From IMG/VR virus record IMGVR_UViG_3300036398_002478, positions 1 through 43,018 of that record: a stretch of DNA of 43,018 nt; one strand, given 5' to 3'. Source of the stretch: a virus. Each line of letters begins with the position of its first letter. The stretch's first letter is position 1. A program made the translations under genes and the position numbers. Below are positions 1,273 to 25,988 of this stretch, piece by piece. The notes beneath the pieces were generated by a model that was not told the origin of the DNA, did not search any database, and saw only the letters and a list, made by a program, of their open reading frames with translations.

Positions 1273-1309
1273 CGGGGCAGGGCAGCTCCCTCAGTCTGCG
1301 GTGGCCATG

Positions 1310-1334: not shown

Positions 1335-1388
1335 AACGAAACCACTCGGACGCCACGTCCAAGGGCAGGGTAGGGAGGGCCTGCAGGC

Positions 1389-4471: not shown

Positions 4472-4738
4472 GGAGTCGGTTGTGGGTTCTCCCACTCTAG
4501 GGGGTGCGGATGCGGAACCTAAGGGGTATGCTGTGCAAGCCACCACCCCCACGCCCCACTCCCTGACGATGCCGACCACTGCCCGGGCCAGGCGGTGGGT
4601 GCCTTGCGGAGTAGAAGCCGTCGGGCTTGGCCTCTGGTCTGTACGGGTCCCATCGAGGACTGCCGCTGGTTCCAGCTCCAACGGTTCCTGAGGGCGGCAG
4701 CAAGTGGGGTGGGTGGTGGCAGTTATTCACGCTGAGCT
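4472..4738. promoter_or_regulatory. Divergent control region between primase and helicase operons
   Basis: This stretch holds the rightward 30-bp promoter block (4503-4532) and, leftward, a TTAGGT/TAGAGT pair with a 17-base spacer (about 4522-4494) that overlaps it, so one bound protein could govern both operons. A short plus-strand frame (ATG 4569 to stop 4691, 40 aa) follows the rightward promoter, but its sequence is low-complexity and I do not call it a gene. Confidence 0.5.
4503..4532 (+). promoter_or_regulatory. Conserved 30-bp promoter block, copy 1
   Basis: Begins GGTGCGGATGCGGAACC and ends in TATGCT (4527-4532). It shares 19 of 30 columns with all three other copies (7187, 12531, 19759 minus). 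The -10 box lies about 206 bases before the helicase start at 4739. It is the least conserved copy (ATG instead of AAC in the centre, and TATGCT). Confidence 0.6.
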
Positions 4739-6139
4739 GTGACCATCACCCTCCGCCCCTACCAGCAAACCTTCACCGCCGACATCTCCGCTGCGCTGCG
4801 CATCCATCGCCGCGTGGTGGGCACGATGGCGACCGGGTCGGGCAAGGGCACGGTGGCTGCGCACATGGCGGCCACGGCTGCACAGCGCGGCCACAGGGTG
4901 TACGTGCTGGCGCACAGAAAGGAGCTGATCGAGGATCTCTCGGGCCGGATGAGCAATCACGGCGTGCGCCATGGGTTGATCGCCATGCACCGGAGCATGG
5001 ACCTGAGCCAGCCGGTCCAGGTCTGCAGCGTGGACACCCTGGCCAGGCGGCTGCACAAGGTCCCGGCGCCAACGCTGATCATTCAGGACGAAGCCCACCA
5101 CCTGATCGAAGGGAACAAGTGGGGCAAGGTGATCGCCGCATGGCCCAACGCCTACCTGGTGGGGCTGACGGCCACGCCACAGCGGCTGTCAGGCGAAGGC
5201 CTGGGAGAGGGGCACGGCGGGTATTTCCGTCACCTGGTGCTGGGGCCTACCGCGCAGTGGCTGACCGATCAGGGCTTCCTGGCCAGGGCAAGGGTGCTGG
5301 CGCCGCCAGGCGTGGACCTGTCTGGCATCAGGAACTTCGACACGCCGACCGGCAAAGCGAAGGCCTCGCAGATCCTCGGCGTTCGCGAGGCGATGGGCGA
5401 TCCGGTTGGCCACTACCGCCGGGAGATCGCGCCGATCCACAACGGCACGGTGCTGGGGTTCTGCATCAGCGTCCCCCATGCTGCGGCGATGGCCGAGCTG
5501 TATCGAGAGGCTGGGATTCCGGCGGCATCGCTGGACGGCAAGACCGATCCAATCCTGCGCCGGCAGATGATCGCCGACCTGGGAAGCGGGGTGTTGAAAG
5601 CGCTGTTCAGCTGTGAAATCGTGAGCGAAGGCACCGACATCCCGAGCGTCGCAGGTGTGCAGCTGTGCAGGCCCACAGACAGCCTGTCCCTATATCTCCA
5701 GCAGGTCGGCCGCGGCCTGCGGAAGTGCGAGGGCAAGCCCTATGCCGTGGTGTTGGATCACGTTGGCAACAGCCACCGGCATGGACTGCCGACCGATGAT
5801 CGCGAGTGGACTCTTGAGGGCAAGGTCGGCCGCCAGGGTGGCGAGAAAGCCCCCTCCGTGAAGGTCTGCCCCCAGTGTTTCGCCGCCATGCCCAGCGCCC
5901 GCCAGGCCTGCCCCGACTGCGGCCACCAGTTCACCCCTGAGCGGCGGGAGCTGCAGCACGTGGATGGTGAGCTTGTGGAAGTGCAGCGGCGGGAAGCGAA
6001 ACGTGAGCAGGGCCAGGCCCAGACCGTCGAAGACCTGATCGCCATCGGCAAGCGCCGCGGCATGAAGAACCCCCGCGGCTGGGCCCGGCACGTGATCGCC
6101 GCTCGGCAGGCGAAGGGGCAGTGGAGGAAGGTGGCGTGA
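4739..6139 (+). CDS. SF2 DEAD/DEAH-box helicase with C-terminal zinc ribbon
   Basis: 466 aa from a GTG at 4739 (a weak GAG lies 5-7 bases upstream). Motif I TGSGKG (K36), DEAH at about 117-120, motif III GLTATPQR, and motif VI QVGRGLRK near 322-329 define a complete two-lobe SF2 helicase of the RadD/UvrB-like, phage-replication type. The C-terminus adds a CPQC...CPDCGHQF zinc ribbon (about 376-396) and a basic tail. It would unwind DNA during phage replication or recombination. First gene of the rightward early operon; its stop overlaps the start of the next gene. Confidence 0.88.
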   Translation: MTITLRPYQQTFTADISAALRIHRRVVGTMATGSGKGTVAAHMAATAAQRGHRVYVLAHRKELIEDLSGRMSNHGVRHGLIAMHRSMDLSQPVQVCSVDTLARRLHKVPAPTLIIQDEAHHLIEGNKWGKVIAAWPNAYLVGLTATPQRLSGEGLGEGHGGYFRHLVLGPTAQWLTDQGFLARARVLAPPGVDLSGIRNFDTPTGKAKASQILGVREAMGDPVGHYRREIAPIHNGTVLGFCISVPHAAAMAELYREAGIPAASLDGKTDPILRRQMIADLGSGVLKALFSCEIVSEGTDIPSVAGVQLCRPTDSLSLYLQQVGRGLRKCEGKPYAVVLDHVGNSHRHGLPTDDREWTLEGKVGRQGGEKAPSVKVCPQCFAAMPSARQACPDCGHQFTPERRELQHVDGELVEVQRREAKREQGQAQTVEDLIAIGKRRGMKNPRGWARHVIAARQAKGQWRKVA

Positions 6140-6756
6140 CACCCCCACGCTGGACCCGCCCCGAGTCGGAGTTCCTCGAATCCCTGGCCGAATCCTTCCC
6201 CGTCCGCGAGATCGCCAACCGCTACCGGCGCAAGGCTGGGCAGATGAAATGGCCGGAGCGCTCAGCGAATGCGATCCACCTGAAGCTGGTCCGCATGGGC
6301 CACCACACCAGGGTCCGTGCTGGCGAGTGGGTCACATCGGGAGGCGCGGCCGAGATCCTGGGCTGCCCCAACACCAGAGTCGAGGCCTGGTTTCGCACGC
6401 GACGGAATCAGGAGATTCTCCAGCCGGTCTGGCGCGGCGCGTTCCGCTACGTGTCCCGCCAGAACTGGCGCCGGCTCGCCAGGGAGCGCCCGCAGGCCCT
6501 CGGCGGGTTCGATGCGGATCGCCTGTTCGCCCTGCTGGAGGATCGCGAGCTGGCCGAAGAGGTGGCCAACCGGTACCCCAGGCCCCGTGGTGACTGGCGC
6601 GTGCGCTGCGTGGAGACCGGCCAGATCTGGCCCAGTGCGGTGGCCGCGGCCAGAGAGCTGCACGTATCCCAGGCAGCCATCACCCTGGCGATGCGGCAGG
6701 CCCGCCCAGTGCGGGTGCTGGCCATGACGTTTGAGGCGTTGCGGGAGGTGGCGTAG
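6136..6756 (+). CDS. DNA-binding protein with HTH-like segments, 206 aa
   Basis: I take the GTG at 6136: it overlaps the helicase stop (GTGA) and has a GGAGGAAGG ribosome site 5-13 bases upstream; a GTG at 6121 would add five residues. The N-terminus (RPESEFLESLAESFPVREIA...KWPERSANAIHLKL) resembles a Myb/SANT or HTH fold. A middle segment TSGGAAEILGCPNTRVEAWF is a second, MerR-like HTH, and a third one near the C-terminus (SAVAAARELHVSQAAITLAM) resembles the HNH-associated NUMOD/HTH repeat. Such multi-HTH proteins are frequent in phage early operons. Its DNA target is unknown. Confidence 0.7.
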   Translation: MTPPRWTRPESEFLESLAESFPVREIANRYRRKAGQMKWPERSANAIHLKLVRMGHHTRVRAGEWVTSGGAAEILGCPNTRVEAWFRTRRNQEILQPVWRGAFRYVSRQNWRRLARERPQALGGFDADRLFALLEDRELAEEVANRYPRPRGDWRVRCVETGQIWPSAVAAARELHVSQAAITLAMRQARPVRVLAMTFEALREVA

Positions 6757-6793
6757 GACTGCGTTAACTGCCCTCACCACGCCCGCCTCCGCC

Positions 6794-7213
6794 ATGCCCA
6801 GCGAACAGGAAACTCAGCAACGAATACTCCTGGCCCACGGCTCAGGCCCGGTCCGCCTCTTCAGGAACAACGTCGGCACCGGCTGGGCTGGCGCCGCCAC
6901 CCGCGTCACCGCCGGGAACCTTCCCGCGCTGGCCCACACCCTCCGCCCTGGCGACGTGGTGGTGCGCAACGCCAGGCCGCTGCATGCCGGGCTGTGCGTC
7001 GGATCCTCCGACCTGATCGGGTATCGCCGCATGGGCGACCTGGCTCAGTTCGTGGCGCTTGAGGTGAAATCGGCCACCGGCAGGCCCACCCCCCAGCAGA
7101 CCGCATTCCTCGACCACATCACCGCCGCTGGCGGGTGCGCCGGAATCGTGCGCAGCGTGGAGGATGCGAGAGAAATACTGCGAACGGGTGCGAAACCGGA
7201 ACCCATCCGCTAG
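6794..7213 (+). CDS. VRR-NUC (PD-(D/E)XK) nuclease
   Basis: 139 aa from ATG at 6794. Contains the VRR-NUC hallmarks: RLFRNNVGTGWAG near the N-terminus, GSSDLIG (metal-binding Asp near residue 74), and ALEVKS (the ExK pair near 90-92), followed by PTPQQTAFLDHI, in which the conserved Gln packs near the active site, and GIVRSVEDA at the end. In phages these compact endonucleases act with helicases and annealing proteins in recombination or resolution of DNA branches. Its 3' end overlaps the second conserved promoter block, so recT can be transcribed independently. Confidence 0.85.
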   Translation: MPSEQETQQRILLAHGSGPVRLFRNNVGTGWAGAATRVTAGNLPALAHTLRPGDVVVRNARPLHAGLCVGSSDLIGYRRMGDLAQFVALEVKSATGRPTPQQTAFLDHITAAGGCAGIVRSVEDAREILRTGAKPEPIR

Positions 7214-7216
7214 GAT
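7187..7216 (+). promoter_or_regulatory. Conserved 30-bp promoter block, copy 2 (recT)
   Basis: GGTGCGAAACCGGAACC followed by a TAGGAT -10 at 7211-7216, 25 bases before the recT-like ATG at 7241. The block overlaps the last codons of the nuclease gene, yet keeps the pattern of the other copies, which argues for selection on DNA function. Confidence 0.7.
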
Positions 7217-7240
7217 TCTGGCATCCAACCGCTCGACGCC

Positions 7241-8077
7241 ATGGCCGACTCCACCAGCTCAGCGCTCACAGCGCCGAGTGCCACACCACCCCTGAGCCTG
7301 CAGGTCTCATCCGTTGACGACCTAGCCCGGCTGGCCCGGGTGTTCGCCGCGTCTGGCCTGTTCGGCCGCGCCGGCAATCAGGAAACACAGGTCGCCGAGT
7401 GCGCCATCCGGCTCATGGCCGGCATGGAGGCAGGGTTCTCCCCGTTCGCCTCCGCCACCGGCGTCCACATCATCAACGGCCGGCCGGCGTTCAGCTCCAA
7501 CCTGCTGGCCCAGGCCGTGCGCCGGCATCCGGTGTACGACTACCGGGTGCTGGATAAATCGGCCAAGGTCTGCCGGATCCGGTTTCTCGCCAACGGCGAA
7601 GAGATGGGCGTGGAGACCTTCACCATCGAGATGGCTGAGCGTGCCGGCCTCCTGAAGAACCCCACGTGGAAGGCCTACCCCGAGGCCATGCTGTTCAGCC
7701 GGGCGCTCACCGCCGGGATGCGCACGCACTGCCCCGACGCCCTCGGCGGCCACACGGCCTACACCCCCGACGAGATCGGCGGGGAGGTGGCGCCGGTGAC
7801 TGTGACTGAGAGCGTCTCTGATCCCGCCGCCGCCCTGCCGCATGCCCAGCAGGTCTGCGATGCCGCCGGCCTGACCTCAGACGGCGTGATGGCGTTCTGC
7901 CTGATGGTCAGCAGCGGGAAGATCGCCGCGCTGGCGGATCTGCCGGCGAAGGTGCTGGAGAGGATCATCCAACAGGGCATCAGCGCCGAGACCGTCGCCA
8001 AGTGCAACGGCCCGGCCGAACCCGACCCCGACCCAACCGAAGACCCCGACGATCTGCCCGCCGCCTGGTCTGCGTGA
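7241..8077 (+). CDS. RecT-like single-strand annealing protein
   Basis: 278 aa, ATG at 7241. Family signatures are in the usual order: MAGMEAGFSPFASATGVHII, NGRPAFSSNLLAQAV, FTIEMAERAGLLKNPTWKAY, and PEAMLFSRALTAGMR followed by CPDALGG. RecT/Bet-family proteins form rings on single-stranded DNA and anneal complementary strands, usually with a partner exonuclease; here the VRR-NUC enzyme upstream and SSB downstream are the likely partners. The last 60 residues are acidic and Pro-rich. Standard length for the family. Confidence 0.85.
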   Translation: MADSTSSALTAPSATPPLSLQVSSVDDLARLARVFAASGLFGRAGNQETQVAECAIRLMAGMEAGFSPFASATGVHIINGRPAFSSNLLAQAVRRHPVYDYRVLDKSAKVCRIRFLANGEEMGVETFTIEMAERAGLLKNPTWKAYPEAMLFSRALTAGMRTHCPDALGGHTAYTPDEIGGEVAPVTVTESVSDPAAALPHAQQVCDAAGLTSDGVMAFCLMVSSGKIAALADLPAKVLERIIQQGISAETVAKCNGPAEPDPDPTEDPDDLPAAWSA

Positions 8078-8114
8078 CTTGGTGGGCTGCACAACCGGTT
8101 CCTAACCCCACACC

Positions 8115-8585
8115 ATGAACTGCATCACACTCACAGGCCGCGCCGGCCGCGATCCCGAGGTCCGTTACTTCGAGAGCGGCACGATGGTGGCCAACCTCAC
8201 CCTGGCGGTGAACCGGATGAAGCGGGATGAAGATCCCGACTGGTTCAACCTTGAAATCTGGGGCAAGCAGGCCCAGGTGGCCGCCGACTACGTGCGCAAG
8301 GGCTCGCTGATCGGCGTGATCGGCTCAGTTCGCAATGAGAGCTGGACCGATCGCACCAGCGGCGAGAAGCGCTCGAAGGTCGTGATTCGCGTTGATCGGC
8401 TGGAGCTGATGGGCTCCAAGAAGGACAGCGAGCAGCAATCAGGCGGGTGGACTGCCGCCGAGTCGGCTGCATCCACCCCGGCCCCGGCCCAGCAGCAGGC
8501 CCCAGCCCGTCAGGCCGCGCCGGCTCAGGCGTGGAACTCCGCGCCGCTGGGCGGCGACATCGACGAAGACGACGTGCCCTTCTGA
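8115..8585 (+). CDS. ssb: Single-stranded DNA-binding protein
   Basis: 156 aa, ATG at 8115. OB-fold start NCITLTGRAGRDPEVRYFES, central WFNLEIWGKQAQVAADYVRKG, and RVDRLELMG closing the fold; then a Gln/Ala/Pro linker and the classic acidic tip DEDDVPF, which recruits helicases and recombination proteins. It coats single strands for replication and for the RecT-like protein. The 37 bases upstream contain an AACCGGTT palindrome (8093-8100). Confidence 0.95.
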   Translation: MNCITLTGRAGRDPEVRYFESGTMVANLTLAVNRMKRDEDPDWFNLEIWGKQAQVAADYVRKGSLIGVIGSVRNESWTDRTSGEKRSKVVIRVDRLELMGSKKDSEQQSGGWTAAESAASTPAPAQQQAPARQAAPAQAWNSAPLGGDIDEDDVPF

Positions 8586-8588
8586 CCC

Positions 8589-8864
8589 ATGCAGATCACC
8601 GACATCCGCCAGCAGCTCGACACCCTGCTAGCCCAAATCGAAACCGACCAACAGGCCCTCGCCGCCGAGAGCGCGGCCGTCGCCCGTGCCACCGAGGCCC
8701 TGCACGAATCCCCGGCGCTGCAGGCTGCCCTATCCCAGGGCCAGGAGCTGATGCGCGGCCGGGTGGTTGCGCTGATCGACCACCAGCTGGGGATGCTCAG
8801 GGAATCGCCCACGGCGGTGCTGCTGCGGGCGCTGCGGCAGCAGGTGCGGGAGGTGGAGCCATGA
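8589..8864 (+). CDS. Hypothetical coiled-coil protein, 91 aa
   Basis: ATG at 8589, 3 bases after ssb. Almost entirely helical: a heptad-like N-terminus (ITDIRQQLDTLLAQIETDQQ), then Ala-rich helices, and a hydrophobic segment GRVVALIDHQLGMLRESPTA. It overlaps the next gene by 4 bases (ATGA). No family recognised. Its place next to ssb suggests a replication accessory role. Confidence 0.65.
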   Translation: MQITDIRQQLDTLLAQIETDQQALAAESAAVARATEALHESPALQAALSQGQELMRGRVVALIDHQLGMLRESPTAVLLRALRQQVREVEP

Positions 8865-8986
8865 CCCTCGCCATCCTCGCCGGCATGGTCGAGATCATCG
8901 CCGTGTTGGCCATCGTCGGCACCGCCACCCTCGCCACATCGCTCTGGTGGGCGTTGTGTGAGCGGTTGGTGCGGGAGGCCGCCTGA
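8861..8986 (+). CDS. Small single-pass membrane protein, 41 aa
   Basis: ATG at 8861 overlapping the previous stop; stop at 8986 overlapping the next ATG. One hydrophobic segment (AGMVEIIAVLAIVGTATLA) followed by WW and basic residues suggests a single membrane span with an inside-facing C-terminus. Overlapping junctions on both sides support real translation. Confidence 0.55.
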   Translation: MTLAILAGMVEIIAVLAIVGTATLATSLWWALCERLVREAA

Positions 8987-10353
8987 TGACCACCTACGCC
9001 GAGTTCCTAGACCGCAAGATCCACACCGGCGCTGACCACGGCTTCGATCCAGTGTTCATGCCGCCGCAGCTGTTTGACTTCCAGCAAGCCCTAGTTGAGT
9101 GGGCTGTCCGCAAGGGCCGCGCCGCAATCTTTGCTGACTGTGGTCTGGGCAAAACCGCCATGCAGCTCACATGGGCTGAAAACGTGGCGCGTCACACCGA
9201 CCGCCCGGTGCTAATCCTGACCCCGCTGGCCGTCGCCGCGCAGACCATCCGCGAGGGTGAAAAGTTCGGCATTGAGGCTCACCGCTCCAGCGATGGCAGC
9301 GTGATGGGGCGGATCGTGATCACGAACTATGAACGGCTGTCAGCATTCAACCCCGCCGACTTCGGCGGTGTTGTTTGCGATGAATCCAGCATCCTCAAGT
9401 CGTTTGACGGGGCACGCCGTAACGAGATCACCGACTTCATGCGCAAGGTGCCCTACCGGCTGCTGGCCACCGCCACCGCCGCGCCCAATGACTTCATTGA
9501 GCTGGGCACCAGCTCCGAGGCCCTCGGCTACATGGGTCACATGGACATGCTGGCGCGGTTCTTCAAGAACGACCAGAACAACCTGACTAGCCGGCGGATG
9601 TACGGAGAGGCTCCTAAATGGCGCTTTAAGGGGCACGCTGAGCAGCCGTTCTGGAGATGGGTCACCAGCTGGGCCAGGGCCTGCCGCAAGCCCTCGGACC
9701 TTGGCTTTGACGATGGCCGCTTCATCCTGCCGCCACTGAATGAGATCGATCACCTGATCGAAACCAGCACGGTGCCGGAGGGGATGCTGTTTGCTATGCC
9801 CGCCACCGACCTACGGGAGCAGCGGGCAGAGAAGAAGCGCACCGTTCAGGATCGCTGCGAACAGGTCGCGGCCATGGTCGCCACTACGGGCAAACCCGCT
9901 CTTGTGTGGTGCCACCTGAACGAGGAGGGGAACCTGTTGCAGCAGCTAGTCCCCGACTCAATTCAGGTCTCTGGATCTGATCGGGATGATGTGAAGGAGT
10001 CAAGGCTGGTGGACTTTGCGGAAGGTCGCGCCAGGGTGCTGATCACTAAGCCCAAGATCGGCGCATGGGGCCTCAACTTCCAGCACTGCAACCACATCAC
10101 GTATTTCCCATCTCACAGCTTTGAGCAGTACTACCAGTCGGTCCGCCGATGCTGGCGGTTCGGCCAAAAGCATGCCGTCAAGGTTGACATCATCCTGACG
10201 GAAGGGGAGCGGCGAATCATGGAAAACCTCAGCCGCAAACGGCAACAGGCTGAGCAGATGTTTTCCAATCTGGTGACAGAGATGAACCACTCCATCGCCA
10301 TCAGTAAGCCCACCTACAACACCACCACCATCACCCTGCCGCCATGGCTGTAA
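8986..10353 (+). CDS. SNF2-like SF2 helicase/ATPase
   Basis: 455 aa. Walker A DCGLGKT (K56), a DESS motif II (about 132-135) in place of DEAH, LLATATAAPND as motif III (about 159-169), and QSVRRCWRFGQ as motif VI (about 383-393). No dedicated target-recognition domain is visible. Such compact SNF2-like ATPases often sit directly upstream of a phage DNA methyltransferase, as here, with a 10-base overlap. Base composition is noticeably less GC-rich than the flanking genes, suggesting that helicase and methyltransferase arrived together. Likely role: DNA translocation in replication or in service of the methylase. Confidence 0.85.
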   Translation: MTTYAEFLDRKIHTGADHGFDPVFMPPQLFDFQQALVEWAVRKGRAAIFADCGLGKTAMQLTWAENVARHTDRPVLILTPLAVAAQTIREGEKFGIEAHRSSDGSVMGRIVITNYERLSAFNPADFGGVVCDESSILKSFDGARRNEITDFMRKVPYRLLATATAAPNDFIELGTSSEALGYMGHMDMLARFFKNDQNNLTSRRMYGEAPKWRFKGHAEQPFWRWVTSWARACRKPSDLGFDDGRFILPPLNEIDHLIETSTVPEGMLFAMPATDLREQRAEKKRTVQDRCEQVAAMVATTGKPALVWCHLNEEGNLLQQLVPDSIQVSGSDRDDVKESRLVDFAEGRARVLITKPKIGAWGLNFQHCNHITYFPSHSFEQYYQSVRRCWRFGQKHAVKVDIILTEGERRIMENLSRKRQQAEQMFSNLVTEMNHSIAISKPTYNTTTITLPPWL

Positions 10354-11315
10354 TCACTGACCGTTACGCGATCTATCACGGCGACTGCATTGAAGTGATG
10401 CAGGGACTGCCGAGCGAGTCCGTTCACTTTTCGATCTATTCCCCACCGTTCGCCGGCCTGTACGTCTACAGCTCAAACGAGCGGGACATCAGCAACAACA
10501 ACGACTATGATCAGTTCTTGCTTCACTACGGCTATGTGGTGTCGCAACTGCACCGCCTAACACTGCCTGGCAGGTTGACCGCTGTTCACTGCACGGACAT
10601 TCCAACCGGCAACAGCGGGCAGGATGCGCTGTTTGATCTGCCTGGCGCAATTGTGCGGTTGCATGAGCAACACGGCTGGCATTACGTAGCACGACACACC
10701 ATCTGGAAAGAGCCGCTATGGGTGCGCAATCGCACGATGGTGAAGAACCTGGCGCATAAAACGATTGTGGATGATGCAGCTTTTGCTGGTGTTGCATCCG
10801 CTGATTATCTGTTGATCTTCCGCCGCAGCGGAGAGAACAAGATCCCCATCGCCAATCCGACCGGGCTTGACCATTACGCTGGAGAGTGTCCCATTCCCCA
10901 AGAGCTGCACCGCTACAAGGGCTGGAAAGGCAAGCAAACAGAAAACCGTTTTAGCCACTGGATCTGGCGTCGGTATGCCTCATCTATCTGGGATGACATC
11001 AACATGGGCCGGGTTCTGCCGTTCCGTGATGGCAAGGATCCTGACGATGAAAAGCACGTTCACCCGCTGCAACTGGATGTGATCGATCGTGCCATCTGCC
11101 TGCGGTCAAACCCCGGCGAGACCGTGCTGACCCCCTTCATGGGCGTCGGCAGCGAGGTCTACGGGGCGGTGTCGCTAGGCCGCCGTGGCATCGGTATCGA
11201 ATTGAAAGAGTCGTATTTCAATCAAGCAATCAAGAACATGGAGATCGCCGTGGAGGACACCCGCGACCCTGACCAGGGCAGTCTGATCAACCTCGATGAG
11301 ATGGAGACCGCCTAA
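10344..11315 (+). CDS. DNA methyltransferase, N4-cytosine/N6-adenine type
   Basis: 323 aa, ATG at 10344. Catalytic motif IV is SPPF (S33-P34-P35-F36), the S-P-P-aromatic form usual in N4-cytosine enzymes, and lies before the SAM-binding motif TPFMGVGSEVYGAV (about 262-275), the beta-class order. GIGIELKESYFNQAI completes the SAM pocket. No restriction endonuclease is adjacent, so it is an orphan phage methylase, likely protecting phage DNA from host restriction or marking it. It is coupled to the upstream SNF2-like gene. Confidence 0.88.
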   Translation: MAVITDRYAIYHGDCIEVMQGLPSESVHFSIYSPPFAGLYVYSSNERDISNNNDYDQFLLHYGYVVSQLHRLTLPGRLTAVHCTDIPTGNSGQDALFDLPGAIVRLHEQHGWHYVARHTIWKEPLWVRNRTMVKNLAHKTIVDDAAFAGVASADYLLIFRRSGENKIPIANPTGLDHYAGECPIPQELHRYKGWKGKQTENRFSHWIWRRYASSIWDDINMGRVLPFRDGKDPDDEKHVHPLQLDVIDRAICLRSNPGETVLTPFMGVGSEVYGAVSLGRRGIGIELKESYFNQAIKNMEIAVEDTRDPDQGSLINLDEMETA

Positions 11316-11458
11316 TGGAAACCCGCCGCCTAACCATCTGCCTCACCCTCCCCGAGGTCGAGTCCCTCCGCCGCCAGCTCCGCCCTGGCGAGGGGATGAA
11401 CGATCTGCTGCGGCGGATCGTGAACGACCGCATCCACAACCCCACCCCATCACGATGA
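11315..11458 (+). CDS. Small helical protein, RHH-like, 47 aa
   Basis: ATG at 11315 overlaps the methylase stop (TAATG). Begins METRRLTICLTLPEVESLRR, then RPGEGMNDLLRRIVNDRIH: a beta-strand followed by two helices, the outline of a ribbon-helix-helix repressor. Stop TGA at 11456-11458 overlaps the next ATG. Tight coupling on both sides supports it. Target unknown. Confidence 0.55.
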   Translation: METRRLTICLTLPEVESLRRQLRPGEGMNDLLRRIVNDRIHNPTPSR

Positions 11459-11733
11459 TCACCTACACCACCCCCACCCTGCAGGCCATGGCCCGCATCG
11501 CCACTGCGCCTGTCACCAGCGATCAGGCCCGGCTCACGCCAACACCCTCCACCCGGTTATCCCTGGCCGCCTGCCCCATGCCGGCGCGGTGCTCTAAGCC
11601 GTGCGAGACCTGCACCGCCGTCGCCCGCAGCGTGACTGCTGAGCTGGGGCAGGTGCTCAGGGAGCGGCACGGCGGGTCCAGTTCGGTGGCGGACTGGTTG
11701 GATGGATTCACACACACTGGAGATGAACGATGA
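11455..11733 (+). CDS. Cys-rich small protein, 92 aa
   Basis: ATG at 11455 overlapping the previous stop. A cluster of four cysteines (ACPMPARCSKPCETC) forms a likely metal site in the centre, followed by a helix (AVARSVTAELGQVLRERH) and WLDGFTHTGDER at the end. The next gene starts within its stop codon (ATGA). No family recognised; a nucleic-acid-binding zinc protein is plausible. Confidence 0.55.
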   Translation: MITYTTPTLQAMARIATAPVTSDQARLTPTPSTRLSLAACPMPARCSKPCETCTAVARSVTAELGQVLRERHGGSSSVADWLDGFTHTGDER

Positions 11734-12530: not shown

Positions 12531-12560
12531 GGTGCAGAACCGGAACCCACCCGGTATGAT
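12531..12560 (+). promoter_or_regulatory. Conserved 30-bp promoter block, copy 3
   Basis: GGTGCAGAACCGGAACC followed by a GGTATGAT extended -10 (TATGAT at 12555-12560). It starts immediately after the preceding stop codon, 54 bases before the ATG at 12614. This is the copy closest to consensus. Confidence 0.75.
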
Positions 12561-12613
12561 TCCCAAGTCAGCAGCCCGAGCGCGGCGCTGGCCATCCACT
12601 CGCCATTCGATCC

Positions 12614-12796
12614 ATGACCACGATCACCTGCACCATCCTGGCCCTGCTGCTGCTGCCCATCCTGTTCCTGCTCTGGGCCACGGAATCCCGCCAGCAACGC
12701 GCCCGCAGGTGGCGCCGCGACGGCTGGACACAGCAGCGCATCGCTGATCGACTGGGGTGCTCGCGCACCACGGTTCGGCGGCTGTTGGCTGCTTGA
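12614..12796 (+). CDS. Membrane-anchored helix-turn-helix protein, 60 aa
   Basis: ATG at 12614. Residues 5-22 are a hydrophobic span (TCTILALLLLPILFLLWA), followed by a basic stretch (RQQRARRWRRDG) and a resolvase-type HTH (WTQQRIADRLGCSRTTVRRL). The topology would put the HTH in the cytoplasm, tethered to the membrane. Membrane-bound HTH proteins such as ToxR-type regulators exist but are rarely this small. It is the first gene after promoter copy 3. Function unknown; the HTH and membrane span are directly visible. Confidence 0.65.
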   Translation: MTTITCTILALLLLPILFLLWATESRQQRARRWRRDGWTQQRIADRLGCSRTTVRRLLAA

Positions 12797-12823
12797 TCGC
12801 TCACCCCACCACGGAGACACGCC

Positions 12824-13720: not shown

Positions 13721-14034
13721 GCCTTGACCTACACAATCTGCCTGCTTGGCCTCAAAGCCAAGAGTCAGTGACAGACCAACTGGCCAGCCTTGTGCTTATA
13801 GCTAATCGGCTGGGCTTGTATGACGCCGCTGATGCTGTTAAGCAAATGAGCGGAAATATACCGCAGCTAAAGTATGGCTGCTATGTAGACCTAGAGCCAC
13901 ATCAAGAGCCAGACGGGTGCGTAATTGACGATGGCAATTTTCATAACTGTGTCTACGCAAAACCAGGCATGAGAAAAGAGCAATGCAAGTATTGGAGGAT
14001 CGTTTCGCCATCTCAACAGGAGGCCAACCAATGA
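13717..14034 (+). CDS. Hypothetical protein, 105 aa
   Basis: ATG at 13717 in the preceding stop. Less GC-rich than its neighbours, like the insert in the previous gene. Contains a helical segment (LASLVLIANRLGLYDAADAV) and a C-terminal half with three cysteines (YGCYVDLEPH, GCVIDDGNFHNCV, KEQCKYWRI). No family recognised. Its stop overlaps the next ATG, and a CAGGAGG ribosome site for the next gene lies in its last codons. Confidence 0.55.
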   Translation: MSLDLHNLPAWPQSQESVTDQLASLVLIANRLGLYDAADAVKQMSGNIPQLKYGCYVDLEPHQEPDGCVIDDGNFHNCVYAKPGMRKEQCKYWRIVSPSQQEANQ

Positions 14035-14222
14035 CCACACCACCATCCCCAGCACAAGCCATCGTGGCCGCGTTTGACGATCGCTACGAGCTGCTGGGTC
14101 CCCTGGAGGACAACTGGCAGGAAGTCTGCATCGCCTCCGCTCTTCATGCCGCTGCGCATCATCTGACACACGATCGCCGCGAACTCCTCGCCCTCGCCAC
14201 TGAACTGGACCCCACACCATGA
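14031..14222 (+). CDS. Hypothetical small helical protein, 63 aa
   Basis: ATG at 14031, 7 bases after a CAGGAGG ribosome site. Helical and rich in Ala and His (IASALHAAAHHLTHDRRELL). Overlaps its neighbours by 4 bases at each end. No family recognised. Confidence 0.55.
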   Translation: MTTPPSPAQAIVAAFDDRYELLGPLEDNWQEVCIASALHAAAHHLTHDRRELLALATELDPTP

Positions 14223-14428
14223 CACGCACCATCAATGGAGAACGTCGCTACGGCTGCTGGGGTGGCTGCCCAAGCGGAACTGCAGAAGATGCAACTAAGT
14301 GCATCGAAGAAGTCTGGCCAACGTCGAGCACATGGATCCCTCATCAATGCTGCCGCAAGCGAGGGCACGGGCCTGATGGCTTGTATTGCAAGCAACATGC
14401 CAAGAAACATAACGAGGTAGTCCCATGA
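14219..14428 (+). CDS. Cys/His-rich putative zinc-binding protein, 69 aa
   Basis: ATG at 14219 in the previous stop. Contains GCWGGCPSG, a CC pair and GLYCKQHAKKH, enough Cys and His for one or two zinc sites. The CRKRGHGPDGLYCKQHAKK segment resembles small zinc fingers met in several phage proteins. Overlaps the next ATG. Confidence 0.55.
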   Translation: MTRTINGERRYGCWGGCPSGTAEDATKCIEEVWPTSSTWIPHQCCRKRGHGPDGLYCKQHAKKHNEVVP

Positions 14429-14586
14429 CCACCCCCCTATTCACCGCCCTAGCCCGTAACGCCACCGCCAGGGCCCAGCTCATCGGCGCCACCGGCCACT
14501 GCCCCCAATACTGGCGCGAGCTGTTCACGGTCACCGCCCTGCTGGGCACCCCCTGGCGTGAGGCTGAGCGCTTGGGGGGTCGGTGA
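14425..14586 (+). CDS. Hypothetical protein, 53 aa
   Basis: ATG at 14425 (overlapping stop), TGA at 14584-14586 overlapping the next ATG. Sequence begins MTTPLFTALARNATARAQLI and carries YWRELFTVTALLGTPWREAE. No family recognised; coupling on both sides argues that it is translated. Confidence 0.5.
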   Translation: MTTPLFTALARNATARAQLIGATGHCPQYWRELFTVTALLGTPWREAERLGGR

Positions 14587-14729
14587 TGCCCCGCCTCTAC
14601 CACGTCCAGCTCACCACCGGCCCGATCGAGCTCTACGCCATCACCCAGCTCCAGGCCATTGCATCTGCCCTGGAGCTGGCTGGGCCTGGCGCCCGGGTGC
14701 TGCGCGTTGCCCGCCAAGGCGACTGGTAA
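14586..14729 (+). CDS. Hypothetical protein, 47 aa, last of the rightward string
   Basis: ATG at 14586 in TGATG. A compact alpha/beta peptide: beta-strand PRLYHVQLTTGPIELYAI, helix QLQAIASALELAGPGARVLR, ending GDW. The regular alternation looks like a folded domain rather than chance. Stop at 14729 abuts the stop of a convergent minus-strand gene at 14730. Confidence 0.5.
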   Translation: MPRLYHVQLTTGPIELYAITQLQAIASALELAGPGARVLRVARQGDW

Positions 14730-14939
14730 TCACACCCCCGGCTCATCACACTCCGAAGGCCCCCGCCGCGGCTGCTCACTCCCACCAGGGAGCTGCAGTC
14801 CGCGGCGTTGGCATTTCCAGCGAAACGACCGCAGCGCCGCGTGACGGCTGCAGCTGACCGCCTCGACTCCCTGCCACTGCACCAGCCAGGTCGGCTGCCC
14901 GTCGCGGATCACCAGTTCGGTGGTGGGGAGGTGGTCCAT
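14730..14939 (-). CDS. Hypothetical small protein facing the recombinase, 69 aa
   Basis: ATG at 14939; stop at 14730. Begins MDHLPTTELVIRDGQPTWLV, then a basic stretch with two Cys (CSRHAALRSFRWKCQRRGLQ). It lies divergent to the recombinase across a 99-base control region, the usual position of an excisionase or repressor. Sequence alone does not show an HTH, so the role is only a suggestion from context. Confidence 0.5.
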   Translation of the reverse strand: MDHLPTTELVIRDGQPTWLVQWQGVEAVSCSRHAALRSFRWKCQRRGLQLPGGSEQPRRGPSECDEPGV

Positions 14940-15038
14940 GGTTCAGGGTACCGATTCCGTGTGCGCTCTGCTGCCGGTGTCCAAGGAAAAGGTGTCCATA
15001 GCGCAGGGTAGTGTGAGCGGCCGTTCTGGGCCGATCCT
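14940..15038. promoter_or_regulatory. Divergent control region of the recombinase
   Basis: Between the two divergent starts. It contains an exact direct repeat GGTGTCCA at 14976-14983 and 14991-14998 (period 15 bases), a likely operator or recombination-directionality site. Leftward, CGGAATCGGTACCCT (14963-14949) recalls the -10 part of the 30-bp promoter family but with a poor match. An attachment site may be here; no second half is in the window to confirm it. Confidence 0.4.
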
Positions 15039-16358
15039 ATGCACGCCATCGGCTACGCCCGCGTCAGCAAGGACGACCAGGCGGACAGCCTCCCAGCCCA
15101 GGTCAGCCGCCTCGAAGCCGCCGGCTGCGCCTGGGTAATCACCGACATCGAGACCGGCCGCAGCACCGATCGGGATGGCCTGCTGGAGGTCATGGCGATG
15201 GTGCAGGCCGGCGACGTGGCCGAGCTGCTGGTGACCCGCGTGGACCGGCTGGGCCGTGACGCGGCCTACACCGATGCCCTGCTGGCCCAGTGCGAACAGC
15301 AGGGCGTCTCCGTCAGGGCCCTGGACGGCGGCGCGATCGAGACGGCCACGCCCCAGGGGTTCCTGATGGCCAGGCTGCAGACGGGCCTGGCGGAGATGGA
15401 ATCGAGGATGCTGAGCCTCAGGCTGCGGCGACAGTTCGCCGTCTACCGCGCCGAGGGCCGCCACCTGCGCCGGCGCAAACCGTTCGGCTACCAGGCCGGG
15501 CCGGGCCATCGGCTGCAGCCGCACCCTGAGCAGTGGCCCCAGGCGCTGCGTGTGCTGCGGGATCTGAAACGGCTCGGGAGCTTTGCGGCGGTGAGCCGAT
15601 CGATGCCGGAGTGGTGCGACTGGACGCCGGCCGCCACCAACCTGCAGGCGTGGTTCGTCAACCCGGTCATCCGCGGGCACATCGGCCACCAGCTGGACCG
15701 TAAATCAGGCAAGGGATGGGGCCAACGGTGGGGGGAGATTCTCTACGACCAGCACCCTGCGCTGATCAGCGAACAGGACTGGCGGGAGCTTGCCGATCTG
15801 CTGCGGCGGCCGACCAACCGATTCAGGAACACTACCAGCCCCGAGGTGGCCCATGCACTCACGGGCCTGCTCCGCTGCAGATCCTGCGGCCATTTGCTGC
15901 GGCGGAACACCTCGAATGGCGTGGCCTGGTGGCGGTGCAGGCACCGGCTCTGCGCAGCCCGGGGTGGCGCCAGGGAGGATCGGATTCTGCCAGTGGTGAT
16001 CGATGCCTGCGTCGCTGAGGCCGGCCGCCTGGCGCAGCTGCTGGCTGAGCCCAAGGCCCAGGATCCGGCAGTGGCGGCAATGGCCGACGAGCTGGAACTG
16101 ATGGAGCGAATGGCCGCACGCAACCCCGAGAACCGGGCAATGGCGGCAGCGGTGGCAGAGCAGCGCCAGCGGATCGAGGCGCTGCGGAGGGTGGAGCGGT
16201 CGGCGGTGGATCCGGCGGCCTATCGGGCGATGCAGGATCCGCGATTCTTCACCTCAGGTTCGCCACAGGACCAGCGAACTGTGATGCAGGCCGTTCTTCG
16301 ATCGGTAACGGTGGGGGAACGTGGCGGCCCGATCGAACCTCTTCCTCGTAGCTGCTGA
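15039..16358 (+). CDS. Large serine recombinase (phage integrase, XisF-like)
   Basis: 439 aa, ATG at 15039. Resolvase domain with the catalytic serine in YARVS (S10, R8) and the TRVDRLGRD motif (D69, R70, R73). Then the Recombinase domain (RRKPFGYQAG onward), a zinc ribbon (LRCRSCGHLL near 281-287, WRCRHRLC near 299-306), and a C-terminal coiled coil (ADELELMERMAARN...). The architecture is that of large serine integrases and of cyanobacterial element excision recombinases. It would insert and excise the phage genome at short attachment sites; excision would need a directionality factor, for which the divergent small gene is a candidate. Confidence 0.92.
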   Translation: MHAIGYARVSKDDQADSLPAQVSRLEAAGCAWVITDIETGRSTDRDGLLEVMAMVQAGDVAELLVTRVDRLGRDAAYTDALLAQCEQQGVSVRALDGGAIETATPQGFLMARLQTGLAEMESRMLSLRLRRQFAVYRAEGRHLRRRKPFGYQAGPGHRLQPHPEQWPQALRVLRDLKRLGSFAAVSRSMPEWCDWTPAATNLQAWFVNPVIRGHIGHQLDRKSGKGWGQRWGEILYDQHPALISEQDWRELADLLRRPTNRFRNTTSPEVAHALTGLLRCRSCGHLLRRNTSNGVAWWRCRHRLCAARGGAREDRILPVVIDACVAEAGRLAQLLAEPKAQDPAVAAMADELELMERMAARNPENRAMAAAVAEQRQRIEALRRVERSAVDPAAYRAMQDPRFFTSGSPQDQRTVMQAVLRSVTVGERGGPIEPLPRSC

Positions 16359-16412
16359 GCATCGAGAGCAGAGCCTCGCGCACTGTCTTAGGGGGGCTGC
16401 ACTTCCGCATCC

Positions 16413-16901
16413 TCACCCCTCCACCACGTACAGATTGCAGTCCCGAGCGAACCCGGGGCCCTCAATGGCGGGATCAGGAAAGCCCATGCGGCATGGGTGC
16501 TCAGCGTCTGGGCCCCGCCACTCCCGGCAGCGTTCGCAGGATGGATCACCAGGCCCTGGGGCTGGCCGGTAGTTCTCGGGCAGCAGGTCGCGGTAGAGCA
16601 TGCCGGCGAAGATCTGCCGCACCGTTTCACCGCTGCAGCCGAACTGCTGGGCGATCGCCCGCAGGCTCATCGTGCCTTTGAGTGCGACTATTTCGGCGAT
16701 CTGCTGAGCGTTAAACCGCCTGAACCCGCGGCGGGTGTTGGATGCGCGGCGCCCGGGGATCGGTTCGCCGTCAATGTCGGACGCCCGGTGCTGGCAAGAG
16801 CCGCACTTCTTGCGGCGGTAGCGCTTGCCGTCGATCATGCGGCTGGCGATGACTGAGAACGCCATCGCCCCGCACTTTGGGCACTGCTGGCCTTTCTTCA
16901 C
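16413..16901 (-). CDS. Zinc ribbon plus HTH DNA-binding protein, about 162 aa
   Basis: I choose the GTG at 16901, which overlaps the previous stop (GTGA); the frame is open upstream to 16985. Zinc ribbon C7-x2-C10 and C33-x2-C36 (CPKCG..., KKCGSCQ), basic linker, then an HTH (AQQIAEIVALKGTMSLRAIA, FGCSGETVRQI) and a C-terminal Cys-rich tail (SCERCREWRG). The plan resembles InsA/transposase-type or regulator proteins. Last of the leftward small-gene group, convergent with the recombinase. Confidence 0.7.
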   Translation of the reverse strand: MKKGQQCPKCGAMAFSVIASRMIDGKRYRRKKCGSCQHRASDIDGEPIPGRRASNTRRGFRRFNAQQIAEIVALKGTMSLRAIAQQFGCSGETVRQIFAGMLYRDLLPENYRPAPGPGDPSCERCREWRGPDAEHPCRMGFPDPAIEGPGFARDCNLYVVEG

Positions 16902-17110
16902 GGCAGGATCGGCGATCGGGACAGGACTTGCTGCGGCACGGTCCATTCGAGGCCCTCGTAATCCACTACCACGTAGTGAGGCCACCCTGAGCGGCCATGG
17001 CCGAATGCGGCGGTGATCCTGGCGGCGAACTGTGGATGGCCAGCGATGAACACTTCGTCACCTGTGGCGAATCGCCAGGGGTTGGCGGTGAGGGTTGCGG
17101 TTAGAGCCAT
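16898..17110 (-). CDS. Small SH3/KOW-like protein, 70 aa
   Basis: ATG at 17110 overlaps the stop of the gene before it. Contains RFATGDEVFIAGHPQFAARI and HYVVVDYEGLEWTVPQQVL, short beta-strands with the GDxV start typical of SH3-barrel/KOW domains. No catalytic residues. Overlaps the zinc-ribbon gene by 4 bases. Confidence 0.6.
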   Translation of the reverse strand: MALTATLTANPWRFATGDEVFIAGHPQFAARITAAFGHGRSGWPHYVVVDYEGLEWTVPQQVLSRSPILP

Positions 17111-17334
17111 GCGCAGGATCTCCGAGAGAGGATGGTGATGGAGCTGGCGTCGGGATGCCGGCGCTCGGCGAACTGGTATGCCTGCTGGCGGGACACAGCC
17201 CGGATGGTGCAGCGCATCGGCTGACGGCAGGCGAAGGTGATCTCCACAGGCCAGTGAACGGCCTCCGGTGCAGCGGTGCGGGTGATGCCCTCGCCAGCGG
17301 ACTGGCAGGCGTCGTCGTCTGGGGTGAAGGTCAT
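17101..17334 (-). CDS. Hypothetical protein, 77 aa
   Basis: ATG at 17334 in the stop of the DnaJ-zinc-like gene (ATGA); stop TAA at 17103-17101. Sequence MTFTPDDDACQSAGEG... then beta-rich VHWPVEITFACRQPMRCTIR and SRQQAYQFAERRHPDASSIT. No family recognised. Coupling on both sides supports it. Confidence 0.55.
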   Translation of the reverse strand: MTFTPDDDACQSAGEGITRTAAPEAVHWPVEITFACRQPMRCTIRAVSRQQAYQFAERRHPDASSITILSRRSCAWL

Positions 17335-17693
17335 TGCTGGGCCTCCCCAGTGCCTTTGCACCGCTGGCACTCCCGGTAGCGGGTGCCCTCGGCCTTGCTC
17401 CAGCCCGCCCATGTCTGGCCAGTGCCTTTGCAGTCCCAGCATTTGCCGGTTTCGGCCTCGTAGGCAGTGGCGATAACCTGCAGTTCCGACCTGGTGATGA
17501 CCACCCGCCGACCCGAGCCTTTGAATCGTGGGCGACCTTTGCGGGGCCCTGAGCGATAAACGCCATCAGGAATGTCACCTGTGACAATTGAATCGCCGTC
17601 GCAGTTTTCCCATTTGTAGGCCTCCCATCCGTCGACGCCGACCTTGGCTTCGGCGGCCTTCATAATGTCGTCAATGCTGTAGTTGTATTTCAT
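17331..17693 (-). CDS. Protein with DnaJ-type zinc repeats, 120 aa
   Basis: ATG at 17693. N-terminal region MKYNYSIDDIMKAAEAKVGV, middle SGRRVVITRSELQVIATAY, and two C-terminal CxxCxGxG repeats (CWDCKGTGQ and CQRCKGTGE) spaced as in a DnaJ zinc finger. It probably binds one zinc and a protein or nucleic-acid partner. Starts in the stop of the upstream gene; both end with the same EAQQ peptide because each stop is formed by CAGCAATGA. Confidence 0.65.
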   Translation of the reverse strand: MKYNYSIDDIMKAAEAKVGVDGWEAYKWENCDGDSIVTGDIPDGVYRSGPRKGRPRFKGSGRRVVITRSELQVIATAYEAETGKCWDCKGTGQTWAGWSKAEGTRYRECQRCKGTGEAQQ

Positions 17694-18073
17694 TGCTGGG
17701 CCTCCAGTTCGGCGAGACGGTTGAGGGCGGCGGTGAGGTTTTGAATGTGGAAGCCGTCCACGGATGCACCGGGGAATCCGAGCCGGAGCACGTCAACCAC
17801 TGCGCTCAGCGCCTCCATCCCCTGCTCCGCCAGCGTCGGCGGTTCGGGGCGGCGGGCGGAGCGGAGATAGTCAACATCAACGCGGGAGAATCCTCTGGCC
17901 TCTAACCACTCACAGCACGCCTCCAGCTCCTGATCTGCGCCCCACTGAGCAGCCCTGTCGGCCATCACTGCGGCGACCGTCCCAGGCTTGGCATTGAGCG
18001 ATGTCTTTTCCATCGCTTCGTTGAGCCATTCTGTGAACAACTCCGGCGGCACCCTCACGGGATGATCAGCCAC
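17690..18073 (-). CDS. Hypothetical protein, 127 aa
   Basis: GTG at 18073, overlapping the previous stop by 8 bases; a longer upstream frame is Trp-rich and antisense-like and is not used. Mostly helical: ELFTEWLNEAMEKTSLNA, LEACCEWLEARGFSRVDVDY, ALSAVVDVLRLGF and a final IQNLTAALNRLAELEAQQ coiled coil. No family recognised. Confidence 0.55.
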   Translation of the reverse strand: MADHPVRVPPELFTEWLNEAMEKTSLNAKPGTVAAVMADRAAQWGADQELEACCEWLEARGFSRVDVDYLRSARRPEPPTLAEQGMEALSAVVDVLRLGFPGASVDGFHIQNLTAALNRLAELEAQQ

Positions 18074-18359
18074 GGCGCACCTCCACCTGCTGAATCCCCA
18101 CCTCCTGAACCAGCACCACGGCGCCAGCCACCATGCCCAGCAGGGCCAGCGCGGCGGCAATCACGGCTCGGCGACCGGCAGCGGCCTGGGCAGCAGCCGC
18201 AGCGCGACGGGCCTGGGCCTGACGAAGTGACAGAGCCAGCTGATCATTTCGCTTTGATGAAGAGAACTTCGGCAGTTGAATGACGTTGCTCGAAACATTC
18301 GCGGATCGTGTCCTGTGACCACCCCTTCGGAGCGATCCATTCGATGCTGTGCTGTTCAT
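18066..18359 (-). CDS. Small membrane protein with Ala-rich helix; start uncertain
   Basis: The C-terminal half is convincing: an Arg/Ala/Gln helix (SLRQAQARRAAAAAQAAA) followed by a membrane span (AVIAAALALLGMVAGAVVLV) and a short tail ending VEVRRG. The ATG at 18359 makes 97 aa but overlaps, in another frame, 116 bases of the 50-aa gene at 18244-18396. The only later start in frame is a GTG at the membrane span. Either a true overlap or a shorter protein from a non-standard start is possible. Confidence 0.4.
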   Translation of the reverse strand: MNSTASNGSLRRGGHRTRSANVSSNVIQLPKFSSSKRNDQLALSLRQAQARRAAAAAQAAAGRRAVIAAALALLGMVAGAVVLVQEVGIQQVEVRRG

Positions 18360-18396
18360 TGGTTTGGGTGTCGCGATAGATGATTTCGTAGGTCAT
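18244..18396 (-). CDS. Hypothetical protein, 50 aa
   Basis: ATG at 18396, TGA at 18246-18244. Sequence MTYEIIYRDTQTNEQHSIEW followed by IAPKGWSQDTIRECFEQRH and EVLFIKAK: a beta-beta-alpha-beta pattern of a small folded domain. It lies 3 bases after the stop of the gene at 18400-18708 in the direction of transcription, in the same leftward group. Confidence 0.55.
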   Translation of the reverse strand: MTYEIIYRDTQTNEQHSIEWIAPKGWSQDTIRECFEQRHSTAEVLFIKAK

Positions 18397-18399
18397 GGG

Positions 18400-18708
18400 C
18401 TAGAAGGCCTCCGTCGATTGCCCGACGAACTTCATGCACTCCCGCAGGTCCGCCAGCAGGTCGGCGGCGAGCTCCTTTGGCACGGCCTGGCCCGAGTCCC
18501 AGGCGTTGTCCGCCACAGCGCTGGCCGTGACCTTCACCGCATCGATCAGCCCCACCAGCAGGGGCATGAGGGGGCGGTTGCGCTCGCCGCAGTCGGGCAG
18601 TTCAATCAGGGAGTCCACGTGTGCCGGCAGCGCTTGGCGGGCGGCCTGAAGGATCAGGTCTGACAGTGCACCGTCGCACTCCAGGGGGGTGGGGTTGAGG
18701 GTCTGCAT
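18400..18708 (-). CDS. Hypothetical protein, 102 aa
   Basis: ATG at 18708, 5 bases after the coiled-coil gene. Helical throughout: ALSDLILQAARQALPAHVDS, a hydrophobic PLMPLLVGLIDAVKVTASAV stretch and LAADLLADLRECMKFVGQS. No family recognised; soluble helical bundle likely. Confidence 0.55.
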   Translation of the reverse strand: MQTLNPTPLECDGALSDLILQAARQALPAHVDSLIELPDCGERNRPLMPLLVGLIDAVKVTASAVADNAWDSGQAVPKELAADLLADLRECMKFVGQSTEAF

Positions 18709-18713
18709 GGCAG

Positions 18714-19706
18714 TCAGGCGCGTGTCCAGTCAACGCATACCGCCGGGTGCAGAGTGCCGGCGACAATCGCCGCGGCCACCTGCTCTCGGGTCATGCGGCC
18801 CAGTGCCGCCAAGATCGACAGCTCCAGGTCGGCAGCGCGCTTTTCGCGGGCCTCTTCGGCTTGCTGTTGGCGGCGGGCATCTTCGGCTTGGCGCTGAGCA
18901 TCGGCCTGCTCAGCAGCATTGGCTGCGGCAATCGCCATGCGCTCGCGTTCCTCGGCTTGCGCTTGCGCACGGCGTGCAGCTTCAGCAGCTGCAATGGCCT
19001 CTTGCTGGCGGCGTTCGGCTTCCGCTTCGGCCAGCATTGCGGCCTGGGCAGCCTGCCGCCGCTCAGCCTCAATCGCTTCCCGCCGGATGCGCTCAATCCG
19101 CTCAGCCTCCTCCCGTGCTGCCTTTTCCGCCCGGAGCTTTTCCAGTTCGGCACGCTCAGCCTCTTGAACCCGCAGGGAATCCCACAGGGACTGAAGTTTT
19201 TCGGTTGCTTCCAGCTTGCGGTTGGCGCCAGCGGTGGCGAACTCCTCCAAGGCGCTGGGGTCAATCGCGGCAAGCTGCGTCAGCCGGACCTGGGCTTCGT
19301 CGGCGGTGGTGACACCTTCCTGCAGCGCGGCGATGCGCTCCAGCACTGCCTTGTGCGCGTCGATGCGCGACTGTTCCTCGGCTTCCAGAACCTTGAGCTC
19401 TCGCTCATGGGGCTCGATCAGCCCTTGGACCGTTGCTTCCAGCAACTTGGCTGTTTCGTCCACTGCGCGGCCGCGCTCTAGGTGAACCGCCTTGGCGTCC
19501 TTGCGTACGCGCTCAATTTTGCCCTTGAGCTTTCGCAGTTGAGCGACCCAGCTGCGAGCTTGCTTGTTATCCCATTTGTCGCGGTAGTCGAACTCATTTC
19601 CTTCTGCCTGTTCGGTGGCAAAGGCGATGTCGGCCGCCAGGGCGTCCCAGCGGCTTAGGGCCGAAGTCTCGGCGACATCCGGGAGGGTGGCTAGTTCGGC
19701 GGTCAT
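18714..19706 (-). CDS. Long coiled-coil protein, 330 aa
   Basis: ATG at 19706, 24 bases after the -10 box of promoter copy 4; a TTG at 19730 would overlap that box and is rejected. N-terminal domain with WDALAADIAFATEQAEGNEF and DYRDKWDNKQARSWVAQL, then an unbroken Glu/Arg/Ala coiled coil (about residues 70-300) and a short C-terminal helix (RMTREQVAAAIVAGTLHPAV). Resembles the phage DUF1351-type coiled-coil proteins often found next to recombination genes. First gene of the leftward small-gene group, divergent from the sigma factor. Confidence 0.7.
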   Translation of the reverse strand: MTAELATLPDVAETSALSRWDALAADIAFATEQAEGNEFDYRDKWDNKQARSWVAQLRKLKGKIERVRKDAKAVHLERGRAVDETAKLLEATVQGLIEPHERELKVLEAEEQSRIDAHKAVLERIAALQEGVTTADEAQVRLTQLAAIDPSALEEFATAGANRKLEATEKLQSLWDSLRVQEAERAELEKLRAEKAAREEAERIERIRREAIEAERRQAAQAAMLAEAEAERRQQEAIAAAEAARRAQAQAEERERMAIAAANAAEQADAQRQAEDARRQQQAEEAREKRAADLELSILAALGRMTREQVAAAIVAGTLHPAVCVDWTRA

Positions 19707-19729
19707 AGGCGAGTGGTGCAGACCTGCCA

Positions 19730-19759
19730 ATCGTACCGCTTAGGTTCCGGTTCTGCACC
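19730..19759 (-). promoter_or_regulatory. Conserved 30-bp promoter block, copy 4 (divergent with sigma gene)
   Basis: Read leftward: GGTGCAGAACCGGAACC then GGTACGAT, with TACGAT at 19735-19730, 24 bases before the ATG at 19706. The first 17 bases are identical to copy 3. A rightward TATGAT -10 for the sigma gene (19760-19765) abuts the block, so both genes probably share its regulator. Confidence 0.75.
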
Positions 19760-19765
19760 TATGAT
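19760..19765 (+). promoter_or_regulatory. -10 box of the sigma-factor gene
   Basis: TATGAT 27-32 bases before the GTG start, abutting the conserved block. No good -35 at standard spacing, which suggests activation or an unusual sigma. Confidence 0.5.
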
Positions 19766-21924: not shown

Positions 21925-21941
21925 GGCTGGCGAGTGGTGGT

Positions 21942-21995: not shown

Positions 21996-22022
21996 CCCAT
22001 CACCGGGTCAGTTCACACATCG

Positions 22023-25950: not shown

Positions 25951-25988
25951 GGCCTTGGCGCTGTATCCCTCAGTCTGCGGACCTCGCC

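Follow-up and report, generated by a model that had tools for sequence, protein, structure and literature searches.

The virus record IMGVR_UViG_3300036398_002478 of IMG/VR (positions 1 to 43,018; "the window" below means this whole 43,018-nt stretch) carries four closely similar 30-bp blocks in front of genes for DNA replication. What are these blocks, and what reads them? The initial annotation had described a four-member promoter family that looked like a dedicated phage regulon, possibly served by the phage's own sigma factor, and asked whether a conserved 17-mer within it is a -35 element for that sigma or an operator for a repressor. We call this four-block family class I.

The four class I blocks lie at 4503..4532 (+), before a replication operon led by the helicase gene (4739); at 7187..7216 (+), before recT; at 12531..12560 (+), before the gene for a 60-aa transmembrane helix-turn-helix (HTH) protein (12614); and at 19730..19759 (-), before a gene for a Gp157-like coiled-coil protein. 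The first is divergent to an operon encoding a ribbon-helix-helix (RHH) protein and primase, the last to the sigma gene. A gapless 30-mer alignment of the four gives the consensus GGTGC..A..CGGAACC.A...G.TA.G.T, with 19 invariant columns. Searching the window for these 19 bases returned these four sites only, where 0.00 are expected by chance with 3 mismatches (100 dinucleotide shuffles). The 17-mer alone was not discriminating: 40 copies with at most 3 mismatches were found versus 22 expected. We also collected relatives via their sigma, recT and helicase proteins and via the exact pattern, and built a gapped profile from 62 distinct 30-mers. On the window this profile found exactly four sites, at 37.9-42.9 bits; the next best site scored 12.4 and the top of 30 shuffles 15.7. 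Alignment, shuffles and the relatives' profile thus bear out the blocks and their invariant columns as initially annotated.

Exact matches to the class I pattern came from 57 viral contig stretches; a search of 84,980 bacterial and archaeal genomes, made as a check on hosts and prophages, gave none. When the relatives' sites are sorted by the gene that follows, they fall into the window's own four operon contexts: helicase, recT, the 60-aa 12614 protein (22 sites) and, beside sigma, the Gp157-like/18400 operon, where the block is kept in dozens of contigs. Some 50 viral contigs have the block in these positions. The isolate Synechococcus phage S-LBS1 (MG271909), whose sigma resembles that of the window at 74-77%, has exactly three above-chance sites, before the orthologous genes for the Gp157-like protein (A34), recT (A44) and the helicase (A50). 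It differs in a degenerate middle element (GGTATG) and in its spacing, which has moved by 1 bp in either direction. The window's coiled-coil gene downstream of site 19759 (18714..19706, -) is the positional counterpart of A34. The S-LBS1 paper used PePPER, and its matched passages report no such promoter family (PMC6157547). The class I motif was not found in S-CBS1 or KBS-S-2A, both with a canonical sigma region 4.2. The initial annotation had asked whether the block is missing upstream of the same genes in related phages; we ran this check, and the regulon reading was not refuted.

The register proposed for the family, with columns 25-30 as the -10 box and the 17-mer over about -36 to -20, also held. 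With column 25 taken as -12, GTGC occupies -35..-32 and CGGAACC -26..-20; the spacer is then 17 bp (16 and 18 in S-LBS1), and the block has an invariant G at -14 and a -10 element TANGNT. Columns 25, 26 and 30 are near invariant among the 62 sites, and the TANNNT hexamer lies at a fixed distance upstream of genes. The -35 hexamer is GTGCRR in the relatives that we group as clade A and TTGCNN in clade C, versus TTGACA. At 12 recT sites the start codon lies 21-25 nt past the -10 box (24 nt in the window, ATG 7241); the helicase start codon is ~207 nt downstream of site 4503, and the other three window sites have short leaders. Because the spacers are 17±1 bp, the G at -14 is invariant, the -10 box is TANGNT and the recT start distance is constant, the four blocks are very probably promoters, that is, real start signals for DNA-replication genes, as predicted from sequence.

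The two divergent loci revealed a layout that adds to the first account of the family. A -10-like box facing the other way, TAGAGT at 4494..4499 (-), lies beside the 17-mer of the helicase site and points in the RHH-primase direction; another, TATGAT at 19760..19765 (+), abuts the 17-mer of the last block and points in the sigma-gene direction. Among the relatives a second, reverse-facing TANNNT stands 0-4 nt from the 17-mer at 29/30 sigma/Gp157 sites and at 11/11 helicase/RHH-primase sites. At co-directional loci an opposing TANNNT occurs at 1/12 recT sites and 0/22 12614 sites. In total, 40 of 41 divergent sites have an opposing -10 box, against 1 of 34 co-directional ones (Fisher p=6e-19, the sites being related and not independent). 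A search by eye for a conserved -35 belonging to the opposing sigma-direction -10 found none. Since a single 17-mer is flanked by opposing -10 boxes at these loci, the expression of sigma and primase may be coupled to the regulon.

Clade C provides a natural promoter swap. These phages have a homologous helicase (92-94%) or 12614 protein (100% over 40 aa), yet they are without the window-type sigma and carry another one, of about 269-299 aa, instead. Their class I version reads GTTGC-N6-GCAACCGCAACG-TATGAT, in which the -10 and the G at -14 are retained. Clade B, which has two sigmas, shows GGTGC...GCATCCGCATTGCTA, and G046 shows CGTGCGG..YTGGAAGTGAACTGCTA. What varies by clade, chiefly positions -27..-15, goes with the phage rather than with the gene. 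This points to a phage-encoded DNA-binding reader and suggests that such a protein reads the middle block. The near-palindrome GGTGC-N6/7-GGAACC spans -36..-20 and overlaps the promoter core. Its palindromic arms match at 4 (A), 3.6 (B) and 4.45 (C) of 5 pairs, against a null of 1.35. Such arms are as expected for a dimeric protein, and this dyad suggests the operator of a dimeric repressor. On the question of operator versus sigma element, the operator side gains from the near-palindromic arms and loses in that no candidate tested matched: no repressor was found to covary with all class I sites. The orthologous positions in many phages, the constant start-codon spacing, the lack of an exact prokaryotic match and the other version in phages without this sigma support the initial view of a dedicated phage promoter regulon, and the family very probably is such a regulon of replication genes.

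Is class I served by the phage's own sigma? The gene (19792..20862, +) encodes a sigma-70-family factor with Pfam regions 1.2, 2 and 3, a region 4 that keeps its fold with a non-canonical recognition helix, and a tail with QLVLVA and QLVLVP. The helices of region 4 are predicted with good confidence, and its HTH has been kept, with conservation across clade A. The region reads STRALEVRLERL where KBS-S-2A has SRERVRQ and S-CBS1 has SRERIRQ. After it comes the tail (residues 284-356), predicted to be disordered, which holds QLVLVA and another QLxL motif. The sigma tails of relatives end in QLSLFAA (clade B), QLALF or QLxLPL, or, in L059, QLVLPLT, and QLxL(F/P/L/V) tails are also found in the sigmas of L295, L059, L060 and L294. 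The bacterial clamp-binding consensus is QL(S/D)LF (PMC9690074). The tail motifs are close to this sliding-clamp consensus and are putative clamp-binding motifs; clamp-like QLxL tails occur in 40/50 non-canonical phage sigmas versus 1/9 canonical ones, and in 13% of shuffled tails. Clade B phages (G028, L284/L295; G026, L285/L296) have a canonical sigma and, adjacent to it, another that is non-canonical and of the clamp-motif type.

A second element goes with this sigma. The motif CAGACTGA precedes the first late gene (1230) at 1291..1298 (-), gene 22295 at 22314..22321 (-) and gene 25950 at 25970..25977 (-), and in S-LBS1 (L173) it lies at two late genes, A15 and A32, at 11470 and 21697 (+). 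In an alignment upstream of the first late gene, CAGACTGA is a short conserved element ~26 nt before the start codon, and no -35-like conservation was found upstream of it across clades. Its distance to start codons is about 26-29 nt in dozens of related phages. Of all 8-mers 26-31 nt before open reading frame (ORF) starts in A-type genomes, it ranks first (17/25, z=11; next 5.5). Across all loci, a start lies 24-33 nt downstream in 67/110 distinct contexts, and in 33 of these the distance is exactly 26. Controls with shuffled letters gave about 1 such case, at most 7, versus 18 in A genomes. De novo searching for 8-mers within B and G046 by themselves gave no clear signal, the sets being too small. 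CCGGAAACCT, which stands weakly before some clade C starts (L300-L305), may be a late motif of the other sigma that those phages carry.

In A, B and G046 the motif CAGACTGA stands at starts; of its 7 occurrences in C genomes, S-CBS1 and KBS-S-2A, none does. It persists where the sigma is only 50-68% identical and the A-type class I motif is lost or altered. At 41-49% identity it stands at starts in 3/12 loci, and at 40% or below in none of 19 loci. These patterns make it more likely that the phage sigma serves predicted late CAGACTGA promoters rather than class I.

The strongest competing explanation is that the sigma does read class I, its diverged region 4.2 contacting GTGC at -35 and region 2/3 an extended -10, so that the family would be a dedicated middle regulon and the spacer element a secondary operator. 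The sigma stays a candidate because no other window gene both occurs in all nine A records, B and G046 and is missing from each of the three C records, where the promoters are different; its retained HTH, conserved in clade A and bearing non-canonical recognition residues, would suit such a role. The A-type class I motif occurs at 37/39 loci with a sigma at least 69% identical and at 0/7 loci at 60-68%, yet the part that varies is the spacer, where no sigma is known to contact bases. Moreover, the -10/G-14 core is unchanged in clade C, which is without this sigma; CAGACTGA follows the sigma more broadly and consistently than class I does; and an early-made sigma would normally act on genes expressed later. 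What keeps direct reading by the sigma in play is mainly that the -35 core also follows sigma type. We therefore no longer favor the initial suggestion: the sigma probably does not read class I, and a middle regulon of this kind seems unlikely, though worth carrying forward.

A less probable reader is the RHH protein (64 aa; 4277..4471, -), the first gene of the primase operon, directly behind divergent site 4503. It would act as an Arc-like repressor over -36..-20 at all four sites, and in both directions at the divergent ones. The fold is predicted by AlphaFold2 with a predicted local distance difference test score (pLDDT) of 86, and Foldseek matches Arc, MazE6 and CopG. Homologs occur in most A records and in B, C and G046; clade A has a single RHH protein, and a tandem double one is found in clade C (L302-L305, L300, L211). 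The hexamer of the helicase site changes together with the DNA-contacting strand: GCATCC/GCATTC with TTE, GAAACC with ATE, GGCGCC with HTD and GCAACC with SFE. However, the strand differs among clade A phages, with C, T, Q, A or H at the first contact position and 45-66% identity, yet GGWWCC is largely kept at the recT, 12614 and sigma sites. Because the protein follows the helicase-site hexamer and not the other three sites, it is a candidate regulator that likely acts at its own promoter; as reader of all sites it is not supported, and we consider that role improbable.

Two further DNA-binding candidates were ruled out. The 60-aa protein (12614..12796, +), with an N-terminal hydrophobic segment and an HTH_23 domain, has a homolog in a C phage that shows 100% identity over 40 aa, even though the motif of that phage differs. 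The Zn-ribbon and HTH protein encoded last in the coiled-coil/Gp157-like operon (16413..16865, -), tried as a common reader, is present in A and C but absent from B. Family libraries gave no match for most small ORFs of the module, and no CI-like gene was found among the genes examined.

That class I is a conserved repeat for recombination, packaging or replication that stands before genes by accident is scarcely credible, for its copies, though few per genome and intergenic, are oriented with the downstream genes and have promoter spacing and a -10 signature, with opposing -10 boxes at divergent genes only.

Taken together, the results are best fitted by a class I core read by a host-type holoenzyme, with a clade-specific operator laid over -36..-20, a reading that we hold with even confidence and doubt. 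The blocks would be true promoters of the replication module (helicase, recT, the 12614 cluster and the Gp157-like gene). Their sigma-70-type core, with GTGC near -35, a 17-bp spacer, G at -14 and TANGNT, would be read early in infection by host RNA polymerase with host sigma. A phage-encoded DNA-binding protein would bind the near-palindrome and switch the whole set on or off, and at the sigma and RHH-primase loci one complex on the 17-mer between opposing -10 boxes would affect both directions. The phage sigma would act later, on the CAGACTGA class, probably helped by the sliding clamp. Several points weigh against this combined picture. It is the -10 element by itself that points to a host sigma; a G at -9 (56/62 sites) is unusual and GTGC is a poor match to TTGACA. 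The -35 core goes with sigma type, GTGC with the A-type sigma (A, B, G046) and TTGC in C, which fits a sigma reader too. The RHH protein, a candidate reader of the 17-mer, tracks the sequence at its own site only, and the phage sigma keeps the HTH of region 4, unlike T4 gp55. The counts, finally, include related phages.

Two other features were seen. A second promoter-like family, TTGCCA-GGGTGTGCCCCACGGGT-TACAGT (window 21940-22000, -), is repeated before variable single genes and is common to clades A and C. Between primase and the first late gene lie clustered repeats, GTAACA in the window (1230-1648, together with a terminator-like hairpin) and GCCTAACCT in S-LBS1 (34236-34641); an origin or packaging site is possible.

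Little is known of gene timing in small cyanobacterial siphoviruses. Our analysis supplies two predicted promoter classes with exact coordinates and a comparison of phage clades in which promoters are naturally swapped, and it gives a sigma previously annotated just as "cyanobacterial RpoD-like" a concrete, testable assignment. A two-stage programme in the freshwater-type cyanosiphoviruses, a widespread group, is plausible, if somewhat short of probable: clade-specific, operator-overlapped, bidirectional replication promoters would be followed by a clamp-tailed phage sigma acting on -10-only CAGACTGA late promoters.

Each stage has a counterpart in known phages. Class I resembles the operators of lambda CI and P22 Arc over early promoters: a near-palindromic 17-mer covers the -35 and spacer, two of the four sites lie between divergent promoters, and one of these adjoins an RHH gene. 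Unlike in those systems, there is one site per promoter, the RHH protein fails to follow three of the four sites, and function is read from sequence. Class I also resembles T4 middle promoters (MotA box, AsiA-modified sigma-70), which serve replication genes and combine a host -10 with a phage-specific element replacing a good -35 (PMC5780444); class I differs in its near-palindrome over -36..-20 and its 17-bp -35/-10 register.

The CAGACTGA class and the phage sigma are best compared with T4 late transcription (gp55, gp33, gp45). At T4 late promoters a -10 element is present with no conserved -35, and the factor used is gp55, which binds the clamp through its C-terminus (PMC7892883, PMC2988020). 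A gp55-type factor lacks region 4 and works with gp33 on the flap; the window sigma has regions 1.2 and 3 and a region 4 with predicted helices, its element differs in sequence, and no gp33 or phage clamp was identified. With region 4 present, the sigma has a likeness of working to gp55, not membership of its class. The likeness lies in a putative -10-type element without -35 conservation and a putative C-terminal clamp-type motif. If the programme is correct, T4-gp55-like, replication-coupled late transcription would have arisen outside the T4 family from a sigma of cyanobacterial type, and a mode of transcription best known from T4-like phages would no longer be confined to them.

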